A DNA stretch of 35,040 bases from a virus: positions 1 through 35,040 of IMG/VR virus record IMGVR_UViG_3300002835_000583; one strand, written 5' to 3'. Below, one piece after another: positions 4,397 through 35,040 of the stretch; the stretch's first letter is position 1, and the number at the start of each line of letters is the position of its first letter. The notes under the pieces are model-generated. The model did no database searches, was not told the DNA's origin, and saw only the letters and a list, made by a program, of their open reading frames with translations. The position numbers were made by a program, and so were the translations under genes.

Positions 4397-5131
4397 TTGG
4401 CATTAAAACCGAAAAGTAGAAGAGAATCAACAAATACTGTTGTTTTAGTTGAAGAGAAAAAAACACCACATAAACAAAGAATCCGAGAGATTATTAAAAA
4501 ACCAAAAGAAAAGTTTTTAACAAGGAATCAAGAAATATATTGGGACATTTTAGGTGATAATCAAATCACATTATGTTTTGGTCCTGCTGGAGTCGGTAAA
4601 TCATATATTGCAATGAAAAGAGCAGTTGATTTATTATATGATGATTCCAACAAATACGAAAAAATTATTATTGTTAGACCGGCCGTTGAAGCCGAAGAGA
4701 AATTAGGTTCTTTACCTGGTGGTTTAGAAGAAAAACTAGATCCATACATTTACCCATCATATTATTTGTTAAACAAAATAATTGGTAAGGATGCTAGAGA
4801 AAAACTAAAAGATGAAGGTTATATTGAAGTTGCAGCGTTAGCTTATATGCGCGGATGGAACGTTGACAACACCATTTTAGTTTTTGAAGAAGCACAAAAT
4901 GCTACACCTTCACAAATCAAATTATTGTTAACACGTATCGGTTACAACTCAAAGTTTTTTCTTTCTGGTGACTTAGAACAATCTGACAAATTTAAAGATA
5001 AAACAAAGTCAGGTCTTTATGACGCAAAGAAAAGATTAGGTGATGTTAAAGGTATTGGAGTTTTTGAATTTGGTATGGAGGATATTGTTAGAAACCCCAT
5101 CATTTCTGAAATTTTAAATAGATACGAATAG
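4397..5131 (+). CDS. phoH: PhoH-like P-loop ATPase, TTG start
   Basis: 244 residues. The ATP site is clear: Walker A GPAGVGKS (62-69), Walker B ILVFEEAQN (160-168), a sensor-like region LSGDLEQSD (189-197) and the family block RPAVEAEEKLGSLPGG (94-109). PhoH proteins are ATPases, often linked to RNA metabolism, and are very common in marine phages; their exact role in phages is unsettled. No ATG precedes the conserved region: the only in-frame start candidates after the stop at 4376 are ATT 4394 and TTG 4397. TTG 4397 (then ALKPKSRRES) is chosen. The N-terminal 40 residues are basic. Start choice is moderate; identity is firm. Confidence 0.93.
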   Translation: MALKPKSRRESTNTVVLVEEKKTPHKQRIREIIKKPKEKFLTRNQEIYWDILGDNQITLCFGPAGVGKSYIAMKRAVDLLYDDSNKYEKIIIVRPAVEAEEKLGSLPGGLEEKLDPYIYPSYYLLNKIIGKDAREKLKDEGYIEVAALAYMRGWNVDNTILVFEEAQNATPSQIKLLLTRIGYNSKFFLSGDLEQSDKFKDKTKSGLYDAKKRLGDVKGIGVFEFGMEDIVRNPIISEILNRYE

Positions 5132-5156
5132 CATTTACTTTAAATAATGTAGGGAC

Positions 5157-5164
5157 TATATTTG
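5157..5164 (+). promoter_or_regulatory. TAnnTTTG -7 box (Bacteroidota type promoter)
   Basis: TATATTTG matches the Bacteroidota -7 consensus TAnnTTTG and ends 4 bases before ATG 5169, so a start site about 5 bases downstream would give a leaderless mRNA. I see no clear TTG-type -33 element at normal spacing. Confidence 0.45.
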
Positions 5165-5168
5165 GTAT

Positions 5169-5777
5169 ATGAATGTTTATATATCAATTGATGGTGTCTT
5201 ACGTAATTTTGTAAGCCGGTTCCATTATCACTACGAGCAAGCGTATGTTGACGTAGAAAATCCCGATGAATCTTTCGAGTATAAAGTTATTGAGCCAATA
5301 GCTAATGACAGTTTAATGAATTGTTTTACTTTTCAATCAAAAGAAGAGTATGATTTTTTCAGGTATATAGAATATCCTATGGAGTTGTATGGTCATTCAC
5401 CAGTTAGTTATAATGGTGCAATAAATGACTTAAATAAGTACATACACGAAAATCCCACACATAACGTAACCTTGGTCGGTTTAGATGAATTTGGTAAATC
5501 TAGACCAGCAACATTCTTTTTCTTATCTAGAAATGGTTGCATGGTTAATAATGTCAAATTTATAACATCTGATAACATTTCAAAAGAATGGGAAAATGTC
5601 GACATATGGATTAGTGATAACAAACAAATAATGGAATCCTGTCCAGAGGGTAAGGAGTTCCAATTGTTCGAAACAAAGTATAACCAACACTTTACTTATG
5701 ACAAAAAAATAAATAAATTGATTGAAGGTCAAGCACCTATAACTTTTGATGAAAATAAATTAATAGAAAATAATTAG
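5169..5777 (+). CDS. HAD-like protein lacking the catalytic nucleophile
   Basis: 202 residues. The N-terminus (NVYISIDGVLRNF) has the shape of HAD motif I (D-x-D-G-V-L), but the first Asp, the nucleophile, is Ser6 while Asp8 is kept. The second half has a HAD-like end: K110 after LVGLDEFG, then a strand VKFIT and the motif-IV look-alike DIWISDN (145-151). It is therefore probably a HAD fold without phosphatase activity, possibly used for binding or structure. The middle (FTFQSKEEYDFFRYIEYPMELYGH) is aromatic and not recognised. It has its own TAnnTTTG box and is followed one base later by a small hypothetical gene. Fold call is moderate; loss of the nucleophile is seen directly if the alignment is right. 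Confidence 0.6.
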   Translation: MNVYISIDGVLRNFVSRFHYHYEQAYVDVENPDESFEYKVIEPIANDSLMNCFTFQSKEEYDFFRYIEYPMELYGHSPVSYNGAINDLNKYIHENPTHNVTLVGLDEFGKSRPATFFFLSRNGCMVNNVKFITSDNISKEWENVDIWISDNKQIMESCPEGKEFQLFETKYNQHFTYDKKINKLIEGQAPITFDENKLIENN

Positions 5778-28589: not shown

Positions 28590-29915
28590 TTATTCAAAGT
28601 ATTTGCTTAATGTCGTGTTGATCGCTTCATTTATGTCACCTAATTCTGGTGTAATATCTGTTTGATCATATTTTCTCAATGTTTTAATTTTCATTGGTTT
28701 ATAGTGATTAAAATATTTTTTATCACGTATATCTAATGATGTGTCGCCATGCTTTGCTGAAAAACTTTCATAATCATCAAAATCTTCTTCATCATAATCA
28801 TCCGAATTGAAATCATCTTCTTTATAATGTTTTGCTTTGTCATCTAACCAACCAATACCAGTTTTCATGCTTTTAGCTAATCTAGATGGTCTTTCAACTT
28901 GTTTTGACGCGTGGAAACCAGATCTTGAAGATTCTTCACCTGGCATTTCATTTGATGATTCTTCGTCGTCAAAGAAAAACATCTCATCAATTTCACTTTC
29001 TATAGCTTTTTCTGGTGTTTTTTTACCACCAATCTTAGTGTTAATTAACTCTTCCAATTTTTTCATTGTTTCAGCTAATTCATCAGTTGGTTCATCTTCA
29101 GCGCTTGGTTCCGCACCAGCATCTTCCCCACTTTCTGGTTCTTCTGGGGTATAAGCATCATCAAAACTTTCTTCTGGCTCAAATCTATCAATTATTGCTT
29201 CTTTATCTTCTTCAGATAATTTTTCAATATCAACAGCAGACAAAATCATATTAATAACGTATTTTACGTCATCACTCTCCATTTCATCTTCGATTTCTCT
29301 AATTGCTTGTCCAAGTTTACCACTTAATCTCTGTACTTCTTTCATGTGTTCAGGACCGCCGTCACCACCTTCTGGTGTATCTGTTGGTTCTTCACCACCC
29401 ATATCTTCTGGCGCTGCGTCCATATCTTCTGGCATTCCACCCATGTCCTCTGGCGCCCCACCCATATCTTCTGGCGCAGCAGATGGTGCAGGAGCAGGTG
29501 CTGGAGCCGGTGCAGATGATGCTGGTTCTGGGAATGTTGGAGCTGGTTTAGGTGCCTCAGTTTTTTGTGTATTTTGTTTTAATACATATTTTGTTGCTTC
29601 TTCTTGAATCTCTTGTGAACTTAATAATTCCAATCTTTTCAATGCTTCAGCATATGAATTAAATCTATTTTTATTCTTCATGAACATACCACCAATATAA
29701 TCAAGGGTAGATTCAGTTAGACCTTTCTTTACGTAGTAACCATCTCTTTCTTTGATGATACCGTAAACACCATTAGTGCTTTCCTTAACAAGTTCCGATT
29801 TAGTGGTTGACTTGGGGTTATTCTTGTTTTCGTGGTAATATGTAAGTTCAAGAATTCTTTTCATTTTGTCAGAACCTTGCAACTTTTCGCTACCTAGAGG
29901 TTTTATATCTCCCAT
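28590..29915 (-). CDS. Acidic virion-type protein with PEDM repeats
   Basis: 441 residues. The N-terminus (MGDIKPLGSEKLQGSDKMKRILELTYY) and a beta-rich segment NGVYGIIKERDGYYVKKGLTES precede a helix. A low-complexity linker (Pro/Ala then four [AM]-P-E-D-M units between plus-strand bases about 29390 and 29480) follows. After that a helix EVQRLSGKLGQAIREIEDEMES and a strongly acidic, Asp/Glu-rich second half with several aromatic stretches. The C-terminal segment TLRKYDQTDITPELGDINEAINTTLSKYF is folded-looking. I do not recognise a family. A TATTTATA box lies 34 bases upstream. Confidence 0.7.
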   Translation of the reverse strand: MGDIKPLGSEKLQGSDKMKRILELTYYHENKNNPKSTTKSELVKESTNGVYGIIKERDGYYVKKGLTESTLDYIGGMFMKNKNRFNSYAEALKRLELLSSQEIQEEATKYVLKQNTQKTEAPKPAPTFPEPASSAPAPAPAPAPSAAPEDMGGAPEDMGGMPEDMDAAPEDMGGEEPTDTPEGGDGGPEHMKEVQRLSGKLGQAIREIEDEMESDDVKYVINMILSAVDIEKLSEEDKEAIIDRFEPEESFDDAYTPEEPESGEDAGAEPSAEDEPTDELAETMKKLEELINTKIGGKKTPEKAIESEIDEMFFFDDEESSNEMPGEESSRSGFHASKQVERPSRLAKSMKTGIGWLDDKAKHYKEDDFNSDDYDEEDFDDYESFSAKHGDTSLDIRDKKYFNHYKPMKIKTLRKYDQTDITPELGDINEAINTTLSKYFE

Positions 29916-29985: not shown

Positions 29986-30783
29986 TTAATACTCCACAGA
30001 TAATTTCTTATCTATAAGTTTCTTTTTAAGTCCCAATAGTTTTTCAATGTACCCATTTCTTCTTAATAATTTGAAAGTAAGGTTCTCGTATGAGTACTCA
30101 CCACCATCATCTAAGCCACTTTGTCTAAAACGTTTCAATTTTAATCTTAACTTCTCAACTTGGCTTTCAACGTCTTCGCCATTATTTGCATTTTCGACTA
30201 GTTTATCGATGGTACTTACAAAATATTCTGCTTTTTTTAGTATTTTATCTTCATCAATAGATTCTTTCCCATATTCTGGTTCGACAATCCATTTATTATT
30301 TAATATAGAATATACCCCAGAGGATACGTGCTCCTGATTAATTTCTTGAACATAGATTTCAACATCGTAACCTTTAATTTTAATATCGTGTCTGTTGTTC
30401 CAAACCCTTTCTTTAGCGTCAAAAAATTCTTTTACAATATCTTTTAATGAATCAGATGTTTTTTCAGCATCTTTACCCAATTCATCGAAATCAACTACAA
30501 TGTGTAAATCAATGTCAGAAAACTCTGACCAGTTATAATTTGCCAACGAGCCGGTCAAAACAACGTCATGAACAAAAAAATTAATCTTCACAAAATCTAA
30601 AAAGGCATCAGAAATTAACATTAGTTTTTCTCTAACACCTTTATTCATGGTATAACCATAATCATTTTTCTCAAAAATATCTGAAGATAGTTCAGTTTTC
30701 TTATGAAACGATTTTACAATCTTATCATCAAGTTCTGGGTCTGAAACCTCAATCAGTTCTTCAATTAATGTTTTCTTTCTCAT
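29986..30783 (-). CDS. Nucleotidyltransferase-fold (pol beta-like) protein
   Basis: 265 residues. The signature reads L-T-G-S-L-A-N-Y-N-W-S-E-F-S-D-I-D-L-H (Gly78/Ser79, Asp90, Asp92), and a third acidic strand Y-D-V-E-I-Y-V (139-145, Glu142) would complete the metal site. This is the G-S-x9-10-D-x-D pattern of pol beta-type nucleotidyltransferases. The C-terminal half is helical (KLRLKLKRFRQSGLDDGGEYSYENLTFKLLRRNGYIEKLL). Such domains transfer NMPs to nucleic acids, proteins or small molecules; the substrate cannot be read. The N-terminal 20 residues (MRKKTLIEELIEVSDPE) recall the targeting-like starts. Overlaps the KTSC gene by 4 bases. Confidence 0.8.
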   Translation of the reverse strand: MRKKTLIEELIEVSDPELDDKIVKSFHKKTELSSDIFEKNDYGYTMNKGVREKLMLISDAFLDFVKINFFVHDVVLTGSLANYNWSEFSDIDLHIVVDFDELGKDAEKTSDSLKDIVKEFFDAKERVWNNRHDIKIKGYDVEIYVQEINQEHVSSGVYSILNNKWIVEPEYGKESIDEDKILKKAEYFVSTIDKLVENANNGEDVESQVEKLRLKLKRFRQSGLDDGGEYSYENLTFKLLRRNGYIEKLLGLKKKLIDKKLSVEY

Positions 30784-31025
30784 TTAATTTTAGTATGTGA
30801 ATATTTCCCCTTAACATGCTGGTTAAGATACTTCCCCTGAGAATCTGACATACGAAATTTCGCAAACAATTCCCAAGGAACGCTTTGGTATTCATAAATA
30901 CCTCCATTATTAAAATTAACTATTAATACCTGACTTTCGGTATCATAACTTGCGGATTTTATATTTGTTGAATTAATGTCAACAGTGATGATTTTACCTT
31001 CAATTCTTTCTGAAATTATAGCCAT
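30780..31025 (-). CDS. KTSC-domain protein
   Basis: 81 residues. The pattern S-A-S-Y-D, then L-I-V-N-F-N-N-G-G-I-Y-E-Y-Q-S-V-P, then F-R-M-S-D-S-Q-G-K-Y-L-N matches the KTSC domain (named for the C-terminal domain of some lysyl-tRNA synthetases), which is often encoded alone in phages. Exact function unknown. First gene of the leftward unit; its leader is shared with the divergent ClpC-like gene. Confidence 0.8.
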   Translation of the reverse strand: MAIISERIEGKIITVDINSTNIKSASYDTESQVLIVNFNNGGIYEYQSVPWELFAKFRMSDSQGKYLNQHVKGKYSHTKIK

Positions 31026-31100
31026 AATGTTTTTTCCTATAATTTAAATATAAAAATCCATAAAACAAAATCCTAATCTAGGAAAATAGTCCCTTCTTGG

Positions 31101-31123
31101 TTAGACATTTTTTTAGACATTTT
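31101..31123. repeat. Tandem 11-bp direct repeat upstream of the ClpC-like gene
   Basis: TTAGACATTTT occurs twice with a 12-base offset, in the intergenic region between the divergent KTSC and ClpC-like genes. It could be an operator; alternatively it is the reflection of a 15-codon minus-strand reading frame (31073-31120). Confidence 0.45.
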
Positions 31124-31155
31124 GACGTTTATTTTTTTTTTACGATGAAATATGT

Positions 31156-31163
31156 TATGTTTG
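31156..31163 (+). promoter_or_regulatory. TAnnTTTG -7 box of the ClpC-like gene
   Basis: TATGTTTG matches the Bacteroidota -7 consensus and ends 19 bases before ATG 31183. A TTTG at 31121-31124 is too far (31 bases) for a normal -33 element. Confidence 0.45.
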
Positions 31164-31182
31164 TTAAAAGAACAATTAGCAT

Positions 31183-33213
31183 ATGTCAGTAGATTTTTTT
31201 GAAGACGGCCCAAAAACCAACCCTAGGAACAGAAAAAGTTCCTCCACAACGCCAATTCTTGATAATTTTTCAAGGGATCTAAACAAACTAGCCGAGGATA
31301 ATAAAATAGATCCGGTCGTTGGTAGAGACAAGGAAGTAAAAAGAATTGCACAAATTCTTTCGAGAAAGAAAAAAAACAACGCGGTCATTGTTGGTGATGC
31401 GGGTGTTGGAAAATCTGCACTTGTTGAGAAATTAGCGTTAATGATTGTTAAAGGTAATTGTCCAACCAATTTATTGGATAAACGACTGGTTTCCTTAGAT
31501 TTAACTTCATTAGTTGCTGGTACAAAATATCGAGGTCAATTTGAAGAAAGGATTAAAGCTATTATACACGAATTAGCCGAAAACCCCAACGTAATTCTTT
31601 TTATAGATGAATTACATACAATGGTTGGTGCTGGTAACGCTTCTGGTGCTATGGACGCGGCCAATATCTTAAAGCCAGCATTGGCAAGAGGTGAAATTCA
31701 ATGTATTGGTGCCACAACTTTTGATGAGTTTAAAAAACATATTGAAAAGGACGGTGCTTTGGTTAGAAGATTCCAAAAAATCATTTTAAAAGAACCAACG
31801 GAAACGGAAACAATAGAGATTTTAAAAAATCTAAAGCAATCATATGAGGACTATCACAGAGTTTCTTATGGTGAAGGTGTGATTGAAATTGCGGTCAAAC
31901 TTGCTGGTCGTTATATGACAGATAGACAATTCCCAGACAAAGCAATTGACGTTCTAGATGAATTAGGTTCGGAAAAAAGAGTAGTAATTGAGGTTCCAGA
32001 AATTATTGAGAAATTAAAAAAGGATGCCGAAGTTATTAAAGAAAAAAAACTCGAAGTTGTTCGTACTCAAAATTATGAGCAGGCCGCAAAACTAAGAGAT
32101 GAAGAAAGAAAAGTTATTAATCGTTTAAATAGCGAAAAAGCAATATGGGCAGACAACGAAAAAAATAATAAAATACCGATTAGTATTGATGATGTTTACG
32201 AAATGATTACATCAATGGCCGGTGTTCCGATTACTAGATTAGACCGCAAAGAAACTGAAAATTTAATTAACCTTGAAAAAAGATTAGGTGAAAAAGTTAT
32301 TGGACAATCAGAAGCTCTAACTAGTATATCCAAAGCCATTAGAAGAAATCGTGTTGGGATTAAAGAAACACAAAAACCTATTGGTTCATTCATTTTTATG
32401 GGATCAACTGGTGTGGGTAAAACATATCTAGCCAAAACTTTGGCTGAATTAATATTTGGTTCAGCGGACAATGTTATTAGAATTGATATGAGTGAGTTTA
32501 TGGAAAAACACACAGTATCAAGATTAGTTGGTGCGCCTCCAGGATATGTTGGTTATGATGAGGGTGGGCAATTAACTGAAAAGGTTAAAAACAATCCATT
32601 CTCGGTGATTCTATTTGATGAAATTGAAAAAGCACACAAAGATGTGTTTAACATTTTACTTCAAATATTGGATGAAGGACACGTTACAGATTCTTTTGGT
32701 AGAAAAATAAATTTTACCAACACGTTGATTATTATGACCTCAAATATTGGGGCTAAAAGAGTTTCCGAATTTGGCGCTGGAATTGGATTCTCCACAGCAT
32801 CTAGCGAACAACAATCATATGAGGTTAAAAGAACTATGATTCAAAAATCATTGAAACAACAATTTAACCCAGAATTCCTAAATAGAATTGATGATATTGT
32901 TTTATTTAATCCGTTAGATGAAACAGCACTTAAATCAATTATTACATTAGAAATGGAAAAGTTGACAAAAAGATTAATTGAGAAAAGTTATTCAATTAAA
33001 TTTGATTCAACTGTTATTGATGAAATTTTCAACAGAAATAAACAACAAGAATATGGTGCTAGACCAATCAAAAGAATAATTCAATCACTATGTGAAGATT
33101 TCCTTAGTGATGAAATATTAAAAGGCACCATTAAAGAGAATAAAAATTACAAAATAATATTCAAAGAAGATAAACTAATTCTTAAATTAGTTGTTGGAAA
33201 GGTTAGTGAGTAA
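31183..33213 (+). CDS. ClpC/ClpA-like AAA+ unfoldase without N-domain
   Basis: 676 residues, shorter than ClpC (about 810) because the N-terminal substrate/adaptor domain is absent; D1 begins at about residue 30. D1: Walker A GDAGVGKS (71-78), Walker B ILFIDE (138-143). A UVR-like segment (QNYEQAAKLRDEERKVINRL, ~296-315) replaces a long middle domain. D2: Walker A GSTGVGKT (407-414), pore loop GYVGY (454-458), Walker B VILFDE (475-480), and NPEFLNRID (562-570) with the arginine-finger region. The tripeptide I-G-F at 534-536, in the region where ClpC/ClpA/ClpX carry the ClpP-binding loop, suggests docking to host ClpP. Converges with the peptidase gene (27-base 3' overlap). Confidence 0.92.
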   Translation: MSVDFFEDGPKTNPRNRKSSSTTPILDNFSRDLNKLAEDNKIDPVVGRDKEVKRIAQILSRKKKNNAVIVGDAGVGKSALVEKLALMIVKGNCPTNLLDKRLVSLDLTSLVAGTKYRGQFEERIKAIIHELAENPNVILFIDELHTMVGAGNASGAMDAANILKPALARGEIQCIGATTFDEFKKHIEKDGALVRRFQKIILKEPTETETIEILKNLKQSYEDYHRVSYGEGVIEIAVKLAGRYMTDRQFPDKAIDVLDELGSEKRVVIEVPEIIEKLKKDAEVIKEKKLEVVRTQNYEQAAKLRDEERKVINRLNSEKAIWADNEKNNKIPISIDDVYEMITSMAGVPITRLDRKETENLINLEKRLGEKVIGQSEALTSISKAIRRNRVGIKETQKPIGSFIFMGSTGVGKTYLAKTLAELIFGSADNVIRIDMSEFMEKHTVSRLVGAPPGYVGYDEGGQLTEKVKNNPFSVILFDEIEKAHKDVFNILLQILDEGHVTDSFGRKINFTNTLIIMTSNIGAKRVSEFGAGIGFSTASSEQQSYEVKRTMIQKSLKQQFNPEFLNRIDDIVLFNPLDETALKSIITLEMEKLTKRLIEKSYSIKFDSTVIDEIFNRNKQQEYGARPIKRIIQSLCEDFLSDEILKGTIKENKNYKIIFKEDKLILKLVVGKVSE

Positions 33214-33984
33214 TTTAAGCCCTGTGTCGATGGCTTTAGCAACGTCGTCGACACAGACATATTCTGATTTTCTGTGCATATTATAATATCCACAAGATAA
33301 ATTTACCCCATCAATATCAAATCGTTTTTTCATCATATAAATGTCTGTGTAGGGATGACTACCATATAATGGTTTATAATCAATCTCCTCAAATGTTTTT
33401 GAAACAACTTTAAAGAAATCACTTTCCCTATCAAATATTCTAACACCGTTACAAATTTCGGTAACCAATTGATTTCCAGGAGCATCGTAGGATAATACGA
33501 ACTTTGTATTTTCAAAAAACTCTGGTTCACAATTACTAGAACCAATACAACCTGTTTCTTCTGAAACAAAGAACGCTAGTTTGATATTATCAACACGATC
33601 CAATATTTCTAAACAAACATATACACCACACTTATCATCACCACCACAACCAGTTTCTTCACCATTATCATCATAACCCTTTAAACATAAAACGTTTTCA
33701 TCGTATGGGTATACTTGACCATAACAACTTAATCTAGGTAACCATTCTTCTTTTATGTTGATTTTTGTTTTTTTATGGACGGTGTCTATGTGAGCACAAA
33801 TCAACGGTTTTATTACATCGGTCCCCTTGGTAACAAAAATGTTACCATATGAATCCACACCATACTCATAACCCTTTTTATCAAAATACTCTGATAGGTA
33901 CTCAACCATGTCCCATTCGTCATATGTTACCGAAGGTATTGATAATAAATCACTTAGACGCTCGATATTTACCAGATTTTCCAT
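33187..33984 (-). CDS. M20-family zinc metallopeptidase
   Basis: 265 residues, without the usual inserted dimerisation domain. Metal and catalytic residues: H65 and D67 in C-A-H-I-D-T-V-H, D116/D117 in G-G-D-D-K-C-G, E142/E143 in S-E-E-T-G, D167 in Y-D-A-P-G and H237 in N-M-H-R-K-S-E-Y. All expected ligands of M20-type peptidases (peptidase T or di/tripeptidase-like) are present, so it should be active on short peptides or amide bonds. The minimal size suggests a monomeric enzyme. Its 3' end overlaps the ClpC-like gene by 27 bases on the opposite strand. Function in the phage unknown; it may trim peptides made by Clp proteolysis. Confidence 0.85.
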   Translation of the reverse strand: MENLVNIERLSDLLSIPSVTYDEWDMVEYLSEYFDKKGYEYGVDSYGNIFVTKGTDVIKPLICAHIDTVHKKTKINIKEEWLPRLSCYGQVYPYDENVLCLKGYDDNGEETGCGGDDKCGVYVCLEILDRVDNIKLAFFVSEETGCIGSSNCEPEFFENTKFVLSYDAPGNQLVTEICNGVRIFDRESDFFKVVSKTFEEIDYKPLYGSHPYTDIYMMKKRFDIDGVNLSCGYYNMHRKSEYVCVDDVAKAIDTGLKLLTNLSNN

Positions 33985-34810: not shown

Positions 34811-35040
34811 ATGGCAATCTATAATGAAAGTTTTGAGGACCGTTATGCTCGTCAAGAAAAAGAAAGAGAAGAATTAAGATTACAAAAACAATTAAAAATT
34901 AAAAAAATGATAAAAGCAATTAGTGCAGGTGTGTTAGGATTTATCCTATTGGTAGTATTATTTAATTCATGTGAGAGAATTGATGCTGGACATGTTGGTG
35001 TTAAAGTTAATCAGTATGGGGATAATAAAGGTGTGGATGA
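34811..35040 (+). CDS. Prohibitin/SPFH-like membrane protein, 3' truncated by window edge
   Basis: Open to the right edge; 76 codons seen. N-terminus is charged and helical (MAIYNESFEDRYARQEKEREE...), then a membrane segment (ISAGVLGFILLVVLFNSC, ~36-54), then E-R-I-D-A-G-H-V-G-V-K-V-N-Q-Y-G. The [ER]-x-[IV]-x-x-G-x-V-G-V-x-x-x-x-G start after a TM helix is the entry to the SPFH (prohibitin/stomatin) domain. Such proteins form large membrane rings and occur in several T4-like phages with unknown function. The rest of the gene is not visible. Confidence 0.78.
   Translation, partial: MAIYNESFEDRYARQEKEREELRLQKQLKIKKMIKAISAGVLGFILLVVLFNSCERIDAGHVGVKVNQYGDNKGVD

Follow-up and report, generated by a model that had tools for sequence, protein, structure and literature searches.

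Positions 1 to 35,040 of the virus record IMGVR_UViG_3300002835_000583 (35,040 bases; this whole stretch is referred to here as the window) encode a ClpC-type AAA+ unfoldase without an N-domain (676 amino acids, aa; 31183..33213, plus strand) and, convergent to it, a single-domain, PepT-like metallopeptidase of the M20/M42 superfamily (265 aa; 33187..33984, minus strand), the 3′ ends of the two genes overlapping by 27 nucleotides (nt). The best reading of this pair and of its relatives, which we regard as reasonably probable, is that the phage encodes a Clp proteolysis line of its own, to which a private tag may direct substrates.

Anatomy of the unfoldase and its ClpP loop

The Pfam scan placed AAA at residues 68-202 and AAA_2 at residues 398-572 of the 676-aa open reading frame (ORF), together with AAA_lid_9 and ClpB_D2-small. 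Two AAA+ modules with Walker A and B motifs and pore tyrosines were found, the conserved Walker A motifs being GDAGVGKS in D1 (residues 71-78, 31393..31416, plus strand) and GSTGVGKT in D2 (residues 407-414, 32401..32424, plus strand). A UVR-type middle segment (residues 285-310, 32035..32112, plus strand) was recognised by PF02151 at 23.4 bits (cut-off 21.5) and by alignment to Staphylococcus aureus ClpC, and the motif was matched in 37 of 53 scanned homologues at E 0.001. The closest solved relative is S. aureus ClpC 6em9, in which the alignment begins at residue 154, and the AlphaFold2 model (mean predicted local distance difference test score, pLDDT, 79.7) finds its nearest Foldseek folds among ClpC chains from ClpC–ClpP complexes. 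The NCBIfam equivalog cut-offs were not reached for ClpB (784.5 of 1232.1 bits), ClpA (708.1 of 993.15 bits) or ClpV1 (650.1 of 884.95 bits). By these sequence and structure comparisons the ORF is classed as a ClpC-type, N-domain-less protein and not as a canonical ClpC.

Clp_N was absent from the window ORF in the Pfam scan, and the comparisons with Pfam, PHROG and the Protein Data Bank agree that the unfoldase begins in the linker after the N-domain. There is no room for an N-domain upstream, because only 157 nt (31026..31182) lie between the clpC start and the divergent KTSC gene. The comparison was extended to 158 aligned phage homologues (157 loci and the window, many being near-copies of one another; L154, which has no clpC, and L005 and L066, which run off their contigs, were left out). 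A DPVIGR-type motif was found in 147 of the 158 phage proteins, always within the first 67 residues; among 80 bacterial ClpC sequences fetched, it was found in 78, of which 76 carry it at residue 177 or beyond (exceptions L191 and L240). Judged by this far N-terminal position of the motif relative to bacterial ClpC, N-domain loss is a trait of the phage group. That group is well delimited in a quick tree of 94 rows, where 76 phage rows split from 15 bacterial and 3 huge-phage rows with a support of 100 in the Shimodaira–Hasegawa-like approximate likelihood ratio test (SH-aLRT), and it consists of clade I, of 24 rows (support 94), and clade II, of 52 rows (support 100), the latter including the window. 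The nearest bacterial proteins by identity are those of Bacteroidota. The three huge-phage ClpCs (L337-L339) are also without an N-domain, yet they group with bacterial ClpC. Supply of the N-domain in trans by a separate protein was rejected, as the Clp_N search was empty in 15 large records; its control missed Bacillus subtilis, so weak copies could escape it. An adaptor search of the large records found ClpS only in the huge phages W01 (180435-180641) and W02 (205085-205279), although their ClpC lacks the N-domain; these two phages also show two and three ClpP matches, respectively.

The middle segment is strongly conserved. Residues Q296, E299, L304, R305 and D306 do not vary in 53 aligned rows, and residue 298 is Tyr in 51 and Phe in two of them, S. 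aureus ClpC having Phe. By a hand count on the structure-match alignment, Y298 faces F436 of S. aureus ClpC, which we take to be a contact in the resting head-to-head state. Because these residues are invariant or, at position 298, confined to Tyr and Phe, the self-inhibition element seems to have been retained despite the loss of the N-domain.

The ClpP loop of ClpC carries a hydrophobic-Gly-Phe/Leu motif, and the window ORF has it as the tripeptide I-G-F at residues 534-536 (32782..32790, plus strand). The pattern [IVLM]-G-F is kept in 156 of the 158 aligned homologues and is missing only in L070 and L109, in both of which the reading frame is broken at the loop (at about 9590 and about 7590, respectively, through assembly error or real loss). 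In alignment A1, whose 53 rows were drawn from 66 representatives sharing less than 90% identity, G531, G533, G535 and F536 are invariant in all 53 rows, and eight of the ten positions within 537-546 have an entropy of at least 2 bits; the invariance of G535 and F536 amid variable neighbouring positions argues that conservation of the loop is not due to chance. Residues 533-538 lie between two helices with pLDDT below 50 in the AlphaFold2 model, in which the IGF region is thus a flexible loop and not part of the core. Docking on ClpP is supported by this conservation together with the model.

These results agree with an earlier note on the same DNA, which had placed both ORFs at exactly these coordinates and had described the first as ClpC-like, with both ATPase domains, a UVR-like segment and no N-domain; Pfam, the solved relatives and the model all uphold that description, and the lack of the N-domain proved to extend over the whole phage clade. 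The possibility raised there that IGF lies in a structured core was not realised in the model, where it falls in a low-confidence loop.

Protease partner, peptidase and transfer-messenger RNA in the relatives

ClpP (PF00574) was matched in 4 of the 26 larger relatives, namely G001, G002 and G003 of clade II and G010 of clade I, and among these relatives all three clade II records of at least 200 kb have it. A further scan with phage ClpP gave 80 loci, and 7 of the 25 of their records that were searched hold a window-type ClpC. Taken over both routes, 8 of 8 clade II ClpC records of at least 200 kb encode ClpP (G001, G002, G003, G028, G029, G035, G036 and G045), the last five having been picked through ClpP. 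All 81 phage ClpP rows have the Ser/His/Asp triad. Reckoned from their coordinates, clpC and clpP are spaced roughly 100-180 kb apart, and short contigs therefore cannot show both. The sister lineage of the window, G028 (L330, in a 7-row tree group with the window), carries ClpP, which is encoded as well in six of the seven jumbo phage records that have a ClpA/B/C-type protein. The partner of the window unfoldase is thus probably the phage's own ClpP, encoded beyond the 35-kb fragment. In clade I, G010 has ClpP, and none of the ten records G011-G020 does, only three of which (G011, G012 and G016) exceed 200 kb; for most of this clade, the pattern of genes makes host ClpP the likely partner. 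The earlier proposal that the unfoldase feeds host ClpP is upheld as regards docking on ClpP, by the loop and the fold, and as regards the host probably has to be amended in clade II.

The jumbo records come from a phage collection. Because many of the best 60 of 170 ClpC rows there, which are mostly unannotated, look like bacterial contamination, ClpP and M20 were counted in just seven of its records, of 349-735 kb.

The peptidase was identified by ORF, Pfam, alignment and model. It just exceeds the Pfam gathering scores of M20 (25.2, cut-off 24.6) and M42 (25.5, cut-off 23.2), and its model (mean pLDDT 93.0) forms one confident domain whose nearest structures are PepT tripeptidases and M42 aminopeptidases. 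H65, D67, D116, E142, E143, D167 and H237 do not vary among the 87 aligned rows, the window included, and are presumably the metal ligand and catalytic positions of M20 enzymes; the earlier description of a minimal convergent M20 with all metal ligands thus holds. A lid/dimerisation domain of the PepT/DapE type was not found in the 265-aa protein, and its alignments span 394-425 columns against PepT chains of 373-416 aa, which suggests that the extra PepT domain is left unmatched. PepT-type M20 and M42 aminopeptidases (3gb0, 3ife and 2gre) share the catalytic fold of the window enzyme, but differ from it in possessing the lid/dimerisation domain, and identity in the ten best matches is 12-17%.

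Linkage of the peptidase to clpC depends on the side from which it is counted. From the M20 side, 79 of the 80 nearest loci have clpC at a distance of up to 3.4 kb (69 on the same strand, 10 convergent), the exception, L154, having only 565 bases before the gene; among representatives under 90% identity, 33 of 33, the window included, lie within 2.5 kb of clpC (27 on the same strand, 6 convergent). From the clpC side, among the matches listed, M20 was found in 7 of the 74 loci with at least 1 kb downstream, an undercount to the extent that the list lacks L081-L089, the group to which the window itself belongs (80-100% identity, M20 in every member). Co-occurrence is one-sided: M20 predicts ClpC, and ClpC does not predict M20. 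The co-occurrence survey suggested in the earlier note therefore bears out an association beyond one genome, but not the prediction of M20 from clpC.

Within clade II, M20 is known only in the window's group (the window, L083, L086 and L089), where it is the one additional gene, placed between clpC and a gene for a lipoprotein-like product; in the sister L001 the latter gene follows clpC directly. The M20 tree sets 31 clpC-adjacent enzymes apart from 9 other phage M20s (100/99), and no resolved branching was obtained for the window's group among the 31. Most simply, M20 would have been gained a second time next to clpC; recombination through clpC, or an old presence with repeated loss, may also account for it. 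A candidate amidoligase partner for phage M20 was dropped, as no informative Pfam match was obtained for the big genes beside M20 in Peat1, IME323-1, phi38:1 and Jenst, the sole match of the Jenst gene being DnaJ below the cut-off. Matches to phrog_4191, an M20 family, are dispersed in the huge phages W01 (LR745206, 5 matches), W02 (LR756502, 4), W04 (LR756501, 6) and W05 (LR756504, 8); one of the W04 matches is weak, and some lie in longer ORFs.

Transfer-messenger RNA (tmRNA) scored above the Rfam gathering score in 16 of 26 large relatives; weaker Rfam matches were excluded, since the same kind appears in archaeal controls. In each of the clade I records G011-G020, M20 is followed on the same strand, after 1.3-1.5 kb, by a full-length tmRNA (e.g., L092:10246-10663 and L121:10285-10692), the score in G011 being 45.1, slightly below the cut-off of 47, and the order clpC, M20, tmRNA is found in 10 of 11 clade I records. 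As G011-G020 were found via M20, their clpC–M20 neighbourhood is not independent evidence, but the tmRNA position is. In clade II, tmRNA occurs in 7 of 13 records, at a reckoned distance of about 14-35 kb downstream of clpC (in G003 and G035 only if the record is circular). Three records of 53-73 kb, G021-G023, are near-identical to the window (ClpC match 100%, rounded; M20 100%); G021 and G023 carry tmRNA, and the shorter G022 has none above the cut-off. These matches suggest that the window's phage probably also carries a tmRNA beyond the fragment. In W01 and W02, no tmRNA above the cut-off was found.

The tag frame was read from the GGC at nt 93-96, the ARAGORN resume codon in Bacteroidota/Ignavibacteriota controls lying at 94-98; the control tags were GENNFALAA, GENNYALAA (twice) and GEYNYALAA, with a fifth control misread. 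In clade I (15 rows with 9 distinct frames, L092 and G012 being the same record), 21-residue tags ending in VTVA were obtained, and in clade II (6 rows) the tags have 20-21 residues of the form G[ND]VY.NME.AG.LATS.VA(V)A. In the window lineage the likely tag is GNVYNNMEIAGLLATSKVAA, a long peptide that does not resemble the Bacteroidota tag GENNYALAA. When rows are compared in pairs, the differences at the three codon positions amount to 30/5/90 in clade II, a pattern that points to selection on the peptide, and to 246/91/235 in clade I, where the pattern is not clear-cut. The phage tags called by ARAGORN (ATEQVTVA in four loci, EKKQTVSFRVLP in two) were rejected in favour of the conserved frame from the host resume position.

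A proposed proteolysis line and its alternatives

In the proteolysis line proposed here, the unfoldase would act as a hexamer from which the N-domain has been lost, whereas the two motors with their pore loops, the middle segment and the loop for ClpP have been retained. It would dock on a ClpP, most likely one encoded elsewhere in the phage genome, and thread proteins into it. Because the N-domain is missing, MecA- or ClpS-like adaptors would not be usable in the usual way and host adaptor control would be escaped, with substrate choice falling to the pore loops, the middle segment or phage factors. The M20, gained beside clpC in the window's lineage, would serve as an accessory exopeptidase that most likely finishes the short peptides released by ClpP, and polypeptides tagged on stalled ribosomes via the phage tmRNA would be one likely substrate stream. 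A fuller version, which we consider rather unlikely, is a private tag-to-degradation line: the tmRNA would add a phage degron (GNVYNNMEIAGLLATSKVAA, or the VTVA-ending tags in clade I) in place of GENNYALAA, ClpC would read this degron and feed phage (or host) ClpP, and M20 would finish the peptides, so that amino acids are recycled and ribosomes are rescued for late synthesis, alongside the ribosomal protein bS21.

Several observations weigh against a proteolysis line of this kind. The 35-kb window contains neither ClpP nor tmRNA; ClpP was not found in 12 clade II records under 120 kb, including the near-identical G021-G023, and three ClpP-bearing records of at least 200 kb (G027, G043 and G044) have no window-type ClpC. 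No tmRNA above the cut-off was found in 6 of 13 clade II records, and the eleventh clade I record, G010, gave only short, weak tmRNA matches. Most clade II loci are without M20, contrary to a single tight pathway, and from the clpC side, among the matches listed, only 9 of 80 loci have it, all at 57-59% identity. Of the 12 records that have this ClpC and reach 200 kb, eight have ClpP only, three M20 only and one both, a distribution that may mean lineage history or substitution and not one pathway. The loop is not a sure guide to ClpP either: of the six jumbo records with ClpP, four show [VI]GF, the tripeptide of Salicola phage SCTP-2 is IGY, and none is clearly recognisable in Salmonella phage 7t3, and the general rule that the loop tripeptide means ClpP was rejected on the seven records. 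In the seventh, LR756501, which is without ClpP, the ClpA/B/C-type protein has no tripeptide. The position of clpC beside the head genes would fit a role in virion assembly, too.

That position is the starting point for a ClpP-independent chaperone or disaggregase for virion assembly or refolding, and jumbo phage ClpA and ClpX have been proposed as possible translocases or assembly aids in the available part of Iyer et al. 2021 (PMC7824862). We consider this role quite improbable in view of the large records of the window's clade, in which ClpP co-occurs. A ClpB-like role requires no ClpP loop, and the loop is nevertheless kept in 156 of 158 homologues. The same loop would serve a phage ClpC that docks only on host ClpP and so redirects the host protease. 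It is retained even in clade I, where none of G011-G020 (three of them above 200 kb) encodes ClpP, the Bacteroidota ClpC loop is of the same type (VGF or IGF in L170-L172 and L174), and SPO1 Gp53 is a phage modulator of host ClpCP (PMC6873191, available part). However, the large clade II records bring their own ClpP in every case, allowing for the five chosen through it, and sole reliance on the host protease appears doubtful.

The place of M20 in the proposed line is less settled, and the view that it is unrelated cargo, hitchhiking beside clpC or moved by recombination through it, has a substantial though somewhat less than even chance. It agrees with the absence of M20 from the flanks of 71 of 80 clpC loci among the matches listed, with the 4 to 8 matches in each of four huge phages, and with related peptidases in small phages of 43-73 kb, where ClpC was not searched. 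It sits less well with the 33 of 33 representatives close to clpC in two orientations, and with its occurrence as a single extra gene exactly at clpC in the window's group.

Individual Clp parts and the modulation of host ClpCP are known from phages. If the proposed line is real, viruses with their own unfoldase, protease, finishing peptidase, tagging RNA and degron would run their own quality-control and recycling line, which would offer a natural test of AAA+ substrate choice without an N-domain and an orthogonal tag–protease pair. Its parts are already known singly, as far as the available parts of the sources go: phage Clp proteins (PMC7824862), phage M20s (as annotated peptidases) and phage tmRNAs (PMC9004378, PMC11242549). 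No description of the clpC–M20–tmRNA order or of a private tag was found among the open-access papers listed. The ClpC of bacterial ClpCP (S. aureus 6em9; B. subtilis 3j3t/7abr) shares the two AAA+ modules, the UVR-type segment, the pore loops and the ClpP loop, and the best structure matches from these two species are 45-51% identical to the window ORF. However, the window type lacks the N-domain, is phage-borne, often occurs with a phage ClpP and in some phages stands by M20. For the ClpP, ClpS, ClpA and ClpX of jumbo phages, action on host proteins or in assembly was proposed, and the text of PMC7824862 has no occurrence of "m20", nor does its available part mention the clpC–M20–tmRNA order. 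SPO1 Gp53 likewise turns ClpC proteolysis to the use of the phage, but, going by the available part of PMC6873191, as an adaptor of host ClpC, whereas the window phage brings the unfoldase itself, without the adaptor-binding N-terminal region. The tmRNAs of phage Melnitz and of Sinorhizobium phage AP-J-162 are also phage-encoded, the latter phage having six potential Clp ORFs as well, and the Melnitz authors speculate that host proteins are tagged for recycling; neither a long conserved tag nor a place behind clpC–M20 is mentioned in the available parts of these reports (PMC9004378 and PMC11242549, respectively).

Phage type, neighbouring genes and split clpC genes

The minus strand of the window carries a T4-like head cassette of major head protein, head maturation protease, portal and terminase, and a PhoH gene is also encoded. 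Ribosomal protein bS21 (PF01165; 21545..21736, plus strand) is encoded on the other strand from the genes for terminase, portal, protease and capsid, an arrangement described by Chen et al. 2022 (PMC9723584) in phages whose predicted hosts are Bacteroidetes. By this marker and the head cassette, the window is probably part of the genome of a large, T4-like phage of the bS21 type that infects Bacteroidota. The available part of that paper, which deals with the same phage type, mentions folding chaperones, a "chaperone ATPase" family and a Clp protease, and does not discuss N-domain loss, ClpP-loop conservation, M20 linkage or tmRNA, "peptidase" having no occurrence there.

In eight loci of three clade I lineages (L090:4180-7910; L120, L121, L124 and L126; L148, L157 and L158), clpC is split within the D1 Walker A into two ORFs; the window has no such split. 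The first ORF closes with about 25 residues that resemble the start of an intein (CVLGDTWIE...), and the second opens with a C-intein-like segment ending in ...VVSHN before CGKT, which matches PF14890 at E 2.4e-4 and 21.4 bits, below the cut-off of 35.8. The two segments have the look of an intein split in an atypical way, and ClpC would therefore need protein trans-splicing in these phages. Nothing equivalent was found for split inteins with Clp or phage among the open-access papers listed. Between the halves in L090, a 247-aa ORF (4961-5704) without a Pfam match appears endonuclease-like by eye, and presumably recalls the "fractured genes" arrangement.

Upstream of clpC and divergent from it, a nucleotidyltransferase-fold gene and the KTSC gene (29986-31025, minus strand) adjoin clpC in most relatives among the matches listed. 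A 441-aa protein with a Pro/Ala stretch and PEDMGG-type repeats (28590-29915, minus strand), for which no family match was found in Pfam or PHROG, is encoded near clpC in many relatives among the matches listed. At the other end, the start of a phrog_200 protein (34811-35038, plus strand; lipoprotein in the PHROG annotation) is truncated by the window end and reaches 306 aa in L083.

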